Below are positions 30,982 through 33,343 of a stretch of 43,456 nucleotides of DNA, one piece after another. The stretch is taken from NCBI GenBank assembly GCA_905233455.1, contig CAJOES010000003.1, positions 1 to 43,456 on the forward strand. Direction: 5' to 3'. Each line of letters opens with the position of its first letter. Positions within the stretch are counted from its first letter, which is position 1. The stretch comes from an uncultured Synergistales bacterium (lineage in GTDB: Bacteria; Synergistota; Synergistia; Synergistales; Aminobacteriaceae). Both the position numbers and the translations under genes were made by a program. The notes under the pieces are model-generated. The model saw only the letters and a program-made list of their open reading frames with translations, was not told the origin of the DNA and searched no databases.

Positions 30982-31081
30982 TTTTAGTTTTACCCTCCTT
31001 CTTTAGGGTCAGAGCGTGAATAAAAACTCTTTCCCGTCAGAAAATTTTTTGCATGATTATAGCACTCATACAGTATTATGC

Positions 31082-31087
31082 TATAAT
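31082..31087 (+). promoter_or_regulatory. Extended -10 promoter element (TGCTATAAT)
   Basis: TATGCTATAATTTC upstream of the repeat-bearing glycosyltransferase; a matching TGCTATAAT lies upstream of the paralog (32272-32277). Confidence 0.55.
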
Positions 31088-31125
31088 TTCAAAAAATACA
31101 TGAAAAGGAGCTTGACAAAATCAAA

Positions 31126-32192
31126 ATGGCCGTCATAATTGACCAGACCAGACCAGACCAGACCAATTTTATGTACTTATAAACCATATTAAACAAGTTG
31201 TAAAAAAATTCCTTTCAAGGCTTAGTTTATTGAAATATATACAAAGAATGAAGCATAATTTTGGTTTCATTTTATGGCCTTTTGTGCGGTTCATATGGTA
31301 TATGGAACACATCTTGTTTAAGATATTCAAGAGAAAGAAAGAATACTGTATCCTTCGTTATTTAGGAAATGGAGCAGGTTTTTTTTGTTATTTCAATACG
31401 CTTCTGGGCGGTATTGCTTATGCAGACAGAAAAAATATGATTCCCATAATTGACATGAAATACATCAGAAACACATACCTTACTGATGATAAAGTAGGAA
31501 GGGTAAATGCGTGGGAATATTATTTTGAACAGCCGGCAAAAATATCTGCAGATGAAGTTCTTTCGCATGAAAGGTGTTTTATATTCGACCAGACACATTA
31601 CCTGCCGGGACCGCTTCAGAATCCTAATTTTTATTCTGGAAGAGGCGGTATGCTGAGTTACTGGCAAAAGATACGCAAAAAATACATTCGTTTAGCTCCT
31701 GCAGTTATAAACAGATTTGAGAATATGAAGATAAAGTACAAAGGCAAAAAAATACTTGGAGTACATATACGCGGAACTGATTACACAGTACTGAAACCAG
31801 CCGGACATCCTGTACAGCCTACACCTGAACAGGCGATAGACAAGGCAAAAGAAGCTATGCAGGAAAAAAATTTTGATATTTTATATCTTTCTACTGAAGA
31901 CAAGCGAATTATGTCGAAATTTCAAAAAGCATTCGGAGAAAAGCTGATATATCCCGAAAGCGAATATGTAGAATTTGATTATACAGGAAGCAATCACGGA
32001 TATATTGATTCGTATACTATCGACAGGGATAACGATAAATACCTGCGCGGCATGGAGTATCTAGTTTCTATATTGTTCCTGAGTCAGTGCGATGGAATAA
32101 TTTGCTCGCAATGCGGCGGTTCTACAGGAGCTTTCCTGTTTTCCGAAGGTTTCGATTATCTCTATGTCTTTGACTTGGGATATTATGACTGA
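31126..32192 (+). CDS. Putative fucosyltransferase-like glycosyltransferase (O-FucT/NodZ-like HIRGTD motif), predicted phase-variable; ORF-track start is TTG at 31230
   Basis: GVHIRGTDY motif, LYLSTEDKRIMSKFQKAFGEKL, GIICSQCGGSTGAF. ATG31126 is out of frame at 5 repeats and in frame at 4 or 7. Frame 0 is open from 31143 through the ORF. Confidence 0.75.
31141..31165 (+). repeat. Pentanucleotide simple sequence repeat (GACCA)x5
   Basis: Exact gaccagaccagaccagaccagacca, immediately downstream of ATG at 31126. Confidence 0.98.
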
Positions 32193-32311: not shown

Positions 32312-33215
32312 ATGAAACCATCAGGTAATTTCCATCCAATTAGATATATATTCAAACTGATGAGAAAATTTATCAGAAATTCTAAATTGCTTGATTTTCT
32401 GCTCAGAATAAGGACAAATTACCGCCTGTTCCTCTGGAAAGTCGAGTATGCACTCTTCAGCAGTATACGCAGAAGCAAAAAACTGTGCGTTATTTACATA
32501 GGCGAAACAAAAGCAGGCTTCTTTGCATGTTTTTTAAGAATCTTGTCAGGAATAGCATATGCTGACAGACATGCAATGATACCTGTAGTTGATATGAAGA
32601 ATCACTATAACGCTTATCTTGAGGAAGGAGAGCTAGGTAAAGTAAACACTTGGGAATATTATTTTATAACATAGACGGACAATTAGATTACTGGAGATAT
32701 ATATGCAGAAAATATATAGTACCTTCTCTTGCTGTACAAAATGAAATTGATAAGTTTAAGAAAAAATTTACGGGCAAAAGGGTTCTGGGAGTATCATTGC
32801 GCGGAACAGATTATGTAGTGCTCAAACTTCATGATCACCCTGTACAGCCGGAATCTGAGACCGTAATCACTAAAGCAGTAGAGGCAATGCGTGAAAATAA
32901 TTTTGATGCTTTATATCTATCGACTGAGGATAAAAACATTGTTGCAAGATTTCAGGAAGTGTTTGGTGAAAAGCTGCTGCTTCACGATGAAAAGTATGTG
33001 GATTTTGATTACAACTCTGACAAATGGATAACCCATTATTCAACCAACAGAGAACATGATAAATATCTTATGGGATTTGAATATGTAGTCTCAAAACTTC
33101 TGCTCATGGAATGCGCGGGTCTTATTACTACTATGACCTGCGGTACTACAGCATTAATGTGTATGTCCCAAGAATGGGAATATTTATATGTGTTGATTTG
33201 GGATATTACAGTTAG
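32312..33215 (+). pseudogene. Decayed paralog of the fucosyltransferase-like gene (internal frameshifting deletion plus 3' single-base frameshift)
   Basis: Two ORF fragments (32312-32674 and 32650-) align to the upstream paralog: GKVNTWEYYF | ...QLDYW...VLGVSLRGTDYVVLKLHDHPVQP. About 35 codons are missing between them. TATGTGTTGATTTGGG probably lost one T, since an added T restores YVFDLGYYS-stop. Confidence 0.82.
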
Positions 33216-33219
33216 AAGT

Positions 33220-33248
33220 TTGACAAAATTTAGGTTTGTTGCTATATT
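33220..33248 (+). promoter_or_regulatory. Sigma70-type promoter for tRNA-Arg
   Basis: TTGACA - 17 nt - TATATT, about 20 nt before the tRNA. Confidence 0.8.
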
Positions 33249-33267
33249 CTCACAGTTGACTTTTTCA

Positions 33268-33343
<76 letters not shown>

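Follow-up and report, generated by a model that had tools for sequence, protein, structure and literature searches.

The stretch of DNA analysed here (the window, 43,456 nucleotides) carries on its forward strand a glycosyltransferase frame at 31167-32192, which is open for 341 codons from a tandem array and is distantly FUT8-like. The array, (GACCA)5 at 31141-31165, was identified by Tandem Repeats Finder with a 100% match; it encodes DQTRP repeats and is stop-free in all three frames. In the mechanical list of open reading frames the gene starts at TTG31230 (31230-31232), with a weak AAGG 9 nt before it. The neighbouring paralogue on the same strand (32312-33195) has its own ATG and no array. 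This paralogue is damaged: its frame is interrupted (open frames 32312-32674 and 32650-33312), and a stretch known in relatives is missing.

Upstream of the array, all on the forward strand, a series of expression signals can be recognised. The sequence TGCTATAAT at 31079-31087, seen by inspection, is the extended -10 of P1, a likely promoter further up, whose transcript is predicted to start near 31094. Then follow a Shine-Dalgarno-like AAGGAG (31105-31110), the -35-like hexamer TTGACA (31112-31117), the proposed translation start ATG31126 (31126-31128, in a leader of the 29-nt class) and the -10-like hexamer CATAAT (31134-31139), which ends one base before the array. The distance of 15 nt between AAGGAG and ATG31126 is longer than usual. 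The two hexamers form an embedded promoter-like pair, P2.

In the assembled state the frame from ATG31126 (31126-31182, forward strand) has 18 codons, MAVIIDQTRPDQTNFMYL, and ends at the TAA at 31180-31182. Because the unit is 5 nt long, ATG31126 joins the enzyme frame only when the copy number is 1 modulo 3 (4, 7, 10 and so on); by translation its frame has 353 codons at 4 copies, 18 at 5 and 23 at 6. Five copies put ATG31126 out of frame, and the assembled allele is therefore predicted to be OFF. Two marks of a simple-sequence-repeat contingency gene of the translational type are present here: the unit between start codon and gene body is not a multiple of 3, and one copy number in three leads to a full-length protein, the latter by translation only.

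The enzyme gives a profile match to FUT8 structures (E 5e-4), with which it has the stretch around ILGVHIRGTDY in common. Unlike true members of the FUT8-like alpha-1,6-fucosyltransferases (PF19745), it remains below the Pfam cutoff (E 0.0035, 16.6 bits against 27.6), and this membership test is not met. Judged from its sequence, it would be no more than a distant FUT8-like glycosyltransferase, whose substrate is unknown.

Similarity upstream of the listed start

The earlier note had described similarity to the paralogue that extends across TTG31230, and had read it as translation out of the repeat. The residues quoted there are present: from 31167 the frame of TTG31230 reads FYVLINHIKQVVKKFLSRLSL followed by LKYIQRMKHNFGFILW and, going back, is open into the repeat, and the paralogue begins with MKPSGNFHPIRYIFKLMRKFIRNSKLLDFLLRIRTNYRLFLW from ATG32312. 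The similarity was confirmed, and on the window gene alone it is modest. In a tblastn search against the window's own genome the alignment (32339-32668, E 6e-23) starts from query residue 5, 17 codons before TTG31230; in relatives it starts from residue 11 (G031), 12 (G032) and 18 (G036), in all three beyond the TTG.

The 17 upstream codons align with the paralogue without gaps at a BLOSUM62 score of +26, which 2 of 300 shuffles also attain. When ten homologues are taken together, the gain from the upstream residues is 62 points; shuffles give 21±10 (1/300 reaches 62), and out-of-frame readings of the same stretch add only 29 and 9. Further, several homologues align in a K-x-FLK-x-x-DR type of helix immediately ahead of TTG31230. 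Matches to the paralogue at the three codon positions number 9, 10 and 6 over the 17 codons; the paralogues, only about 45-50% identical, are too diverged for dN/dS.

We judge from these alignments that TTG31230 is not the main start; homology continues upstream of it. The proposed N-terminus lies on the repeat side, as the earlier note suggested, and our addition is to place it still further up, upstream of the repeat at ATG31126.

The start module in the genus

Elsewhere the same elements recur in the same order: Shine-Dalgarno sequence, TTGACA, start codon, TAnnnT and tandem array, before mostly surface-polysaccharide enzymes. A search for (GACCA)4 was positive for 15 of the 37 genus members examined, and the 24 genomes from elsewhere in the order had none. 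With a looser leader search, arrays of GACCA, GACAA and GACAC were found in 20 of the 43 genomes from this genus of gut Synergistaceae; the phylum's 142 remaining genomes gave one chance match without an array. The window's genome has at least 24 module loci; all locus counts come from pattern searches and are minimum values. The named records are Synergistaceae MAGs of the goat gut, one reindeer MAG and uncultured Fretibacterium.

These counts bear on the possibility of chance, that is, a decaying gene beside a fortuitous repeat. In its support one could cite the damaged neighbouring paralogue and the modest upstream similarity of the window gene alone (the 2/300 and 1/300 above). A module at 24 places in one genome, and in 20 genomes of the genus, already contradicts it, and practically no weight remains on it. 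The decisive evidence for upstream coding is that of the other loci with the same module, not that of the window gene alone.

Some matches outside the genus deserve mention. In a scan of 85,000 genomes the non-family matches (Endomicrobium, Acidobacteria and others) were on inspection without the module. Termite-gut Endomicrobia have GACCA arrays of 13 and 4 copies (L120, L135) from which the leader module is absent. A contig binned as Eubacterium (L128, Eubacterium sp. RGIG4867), and assigned to another phylum, carries the module; this may be misbinning or transfer. A phage origin was considered and rejected: the sole match in viral contigs is an array without the module, and in a phage collection the match, of 47 nt, was only weak. 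In two genus members without GACCA arrays (G020, G009), a search for other units found no comparable arrays.

For the three units GACCA, GACAA and GACAC, 67 distinct leaders were collected. It should be kept in mind that the leaders are related, so that counts among them are not independent. A start codon (ATG, GTG or TTG) with a frame open into the array is present in 61 of the 67, mostly at +8/9 or +14/15 from TTGACA. The largest class, with leaders of 29 nt, has an open start codon in 33 of 33 cases, against 24.4±1.4 after column shuffling (0/2000 reach 33) and 4.9±2.0 after shuffling within rows. In addition, substitutions at the same place preserve the start: ATG in L064 is TTG in L065, and GTG is found in L081 and L156.

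A Shine-Dalgarno-like tetramer lies at most 14 nt before TTGACA in 61/67 leaders. TGnTAnnnT occurs within 60 nt upstream of TTGACA in 40/67, where 5.4 are expected, and an open frame of at least 80 codons ends within 150 nt upstream in 49/67; the Shine-Dalgarno sequence and the start codon can therefore sit on RNA begun upstream. The idea that the leader peptide is conserved as amino acids was rejected: the nucleotides of TTGACA and TAnnnT are kept, and the encoded residues vary. The spacers differ at 4.87 of 16 positions within a genome and at 6.76 between genomes (0/5000 label shuffles), and this greater likeness within genomes suggests that leaders may have been copied or converted there.

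Arrays and the frames behind them

In wider sampling 27 distinct units were seen. They have 5, 7 or 8 nt, never 6 or 9, and all 27 are free of stops and of ATG in the sense frames; among sets of random units of the same composition, all are stop-free in 119 of 20000. Further units behind the same leader include ATCGCAC, GACTCAG, GACAGCA (11.9 copies), CCACA, GAACA and TCGGCTGT, and at further loci with other units the start codon is open into the array in 32 of 32. Non-GACCA units in the window's genome, GACAGCA with its 11.9 copies among them, are those of G000:C8, C9, C17, C18, C22 and C27; more such loci are G000:C31, C47, C67, C71, C78 and C117 (set L279-L302, L317, L318).

At L045 and L046 (G000:C35 and C38) the module is followed by (GGTCT)7, with no clear long open frame in the available bases; G000:C38 ends soon after its array. 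That (GGTCT)n might be flipped GACCA arrays was rejected, since about two dozen other units are known and this is simply another one. Outside the module set, the contig ends G031:C4 and C5 have long (TTGAC)n arrays with a stop in one frame.

Between orthologues of 45-76% identity both the copy number and the unit differ, and homology starts at the end of the array. Examples are GACCA4 against GAACA11 (68% identity), GACAC4/9/10 (75%) and GACAC3 against GACCAGC6 (45%). The membership test of array lengths that differ among related genomes is thus met, between species and not between strains. The assembled arrays have low copy numbers, mostly 4-5, and assembly may have collapsed them. A number of contigs end exactly within an array (L053, L057, L058, L072, L081, L082, L123, L156, L194, L247 and L249), as if assemblers had met unresolved or variable repeats in several genomes. 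Many loci have in common a weak motif, approximately TATTNTG(C/T), which lies no more than 20 nt behind the array and in differing reading frames.

Of the 57 readable loci, 44 have an open frame of 200 codons or more that runs on directly from the array. Behind the array, the median distance to the first ATG, GTG or TTG is 21 codons, a position that often falls within the conserved domain, and to the first ATG it is 58 codons. In the acyltransferases a conserved RNSSLELLR follows a few codons after the array with no intervening start codon. Together with the 61/67 leaders open into the array, these frames support translation out of the repeat far beyond the single gene for which the earlier note had claimed it. 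Among the other 13 loci, four are apparently broken by a stop or a frameshift, and a fifth has a start of its own a long way downstream. At the remaining 8, one leader frame of the three comes to its end no more than 6 nt from the enzyme's ATG, in five cases overlapping it; this is the geometry of translational coupling, in which expression would again depend on copy number. Where states can be assigned, 10 are predicted ON (in frame) and 28 OFF, near one in three.

The downstream families are GT2, GT4, GT61, DUF4422, Acyl_transf_3, PIG-L, sulfatase, Stealth and Bac_transf, and also pyruvyl-, sulfo- and methyltransferases. A role of the module genes in surface glycans is inferred from these families.

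The continuity of enzyme frame and array also bears on leader-peptide attenuation, where the copy number would set the end of a leader peptide relative to a terminator hairpin. Such a system is known from the pil1 and pil3 operons of Streptococcus gallolyticus, and it resembles the present module in several ways: a pentanucleotide array (GCAGA) stands just after a ribosome binding site and ATG, near the start of a short leader frame in pil1, and the copy number modulo 3 decides (PMC3894217). Those operons act via leader peptide and terminator hairpin (PMC3894217), whereas no terminator-like hairpin lies between array and enzyme here, and the hairpin membership test is not met. The RNA behind the arrays shows no more structure than shuffled sequence does (mean z 0.21, 57 loci). 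With a frame that runs on from the array into the enzyme, we regard attenuation of the pil1 type as very improbable.

The embedded promoter-like pair and the proposed switch

TTGACA is present in 62/67 leaders. Since TTGAC was part of the pattern by which the leaders were gathered, only the last base is independent and the -35 count is biased; an array-only search, without TTGAC in the pattern, also finds TTGACA at nearly every GACCA array. For TAnnnT, 65/67 leaders have A as the second base and T as the sixth, with 19.3 expected. The two hexamers enclose the start codon at a spacing of 16-17 nt, and the array starts 0-8 nt after the -10. In the window the hexamers of P2 have 11 of 12 consensus matches with a spacer of 16, meeting the sigma70 hexamer test (16-18 nt), and they resemble a promoter-like pair before the tRNA-Arg gene in the window.

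P2 (31112-31139) might then be a working promoter whose RNA starts in the array, with translation from TTG31230; the untranslated array would tune transcription or RNA stability. The quality and strong conservation of P2, its likeness to the tRNA-Arg pair and the weak AAGG before TTG31230 agree with this. Against it stand the conserved start codons upstream of the arrays, the open frames, most of which lack any start codon from the array up to the conserved domain, and the similarity that continues upstream of TTG31230. Nor would an untranslated array need stop-free units or unit lengths that are not multiples of 3. We consider an untranslated array unlikely.

Instead, we propose that the gene at 31126-32192 is phase-variable, a contingency gene read from ATG31126 through the GACCA array into the glycosyltransferase and switched by slippage and frameshift. 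We put the probability of this at about 0.87; switching has not been observed. Slipped-strand mispairing would add or remove copies, each shifting the frame by 5 nt, and one copy number in three (4, 7, 10 and so on) would give the enzyme, the others a peptide of 18 to 23 residues. The same module before tens of mostly surface-polysaccharide genes would then generate combinatorial surface variation.

The architecture, the conserved start codon, the open frames without a start of their own, the frame logic and the differences in unit and copy number between orthologues are observed features. Slippage in living cells, switching of expression and the surface role are inferred. Change in copy number is likewise an inference; without read data or a strain series, no change within a species was seen. 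Counted against phase variation are the 15 nt between the Shine-Dalgarno sequence and ATG31126 in the window, the low copy numbers in assemblies, and P2, which would start RNA inside the array.

Repeat-mediated phase variation is already known. In neuO of E. coli K1, a phase-variable capsule O-acetyltransferase with an AAGACTC heptamer array, units not divisible by 3 also lie in the 5' part of the coding sequence for an enzyme that modifies a polysaccharide, and one copy number in three gives full-length translation (PMC13001214). However, neuO is one gene with one unit on a phage, while the Synergistaceae module has 27 units before tens of chromosomal genes and a promoter-like pair around the start codon. 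In Haemophilus influenzae the hsdM pentamer (GACGA)4 switches at a high rate with only 4 copies, and several phase-variable LPS and other genes occur per genome (PMC2651432), as is proposed here. In contrast, as far as the accessible part of that source goes, its repeats are mostly tetramers inside unrelated gene starts, and no shared start module is described. The TAACTGA repeats of Beggiatoaceae are similar in that a single lineage has a short array at the beginning of a great many genes, but they consist of one unit, mostly just upstream of start codons, not of many stop-free units downstream (PMC4679880).

What is new is a single start module that tens of genes have in common, in which units of 5, 7 or 8 nt are interchangeable and a promoter is embedded. 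A search limited to open-access literature turned up no description of phase variation in Synergistota, which is weak evidence of absence. If the proposal is true, gut Synergistaceae carry a large repeat-switched gene set, 24 or more genes in the window's genome, built on one reusable start module. Mechanical gene starts would be wrong at module genes, as at TTG31230, and OFF alleles may be mistaken for pseudogenes. The module also permits searches for switchable genes in uncultured genomes.

A clean question that remains is why the promoter is kept around the start codon. RNA from P2 would begin inside the array, without Shine-Dalgarno sequence or start codon, and transcription from P2 is itself only inferred. 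The phase-variation model does not need P2 and does not explain its retention. P2 might serve polymerase-driven instability of the array, might act as an internal promoter, or might be no more than a relic left by copying of the module. Tentatively, P2 could be a part of the switch, if the array mutates faster when polymerase initiates on it or if such initiation competes with the transcript from upstream, a possibility we rate well below even. One transferable module would in that case both start translation and drive its own switching. At L063 (G004:C23) the array has overrun or replaced the -10 hexamer, a natural promoter-minus variant.
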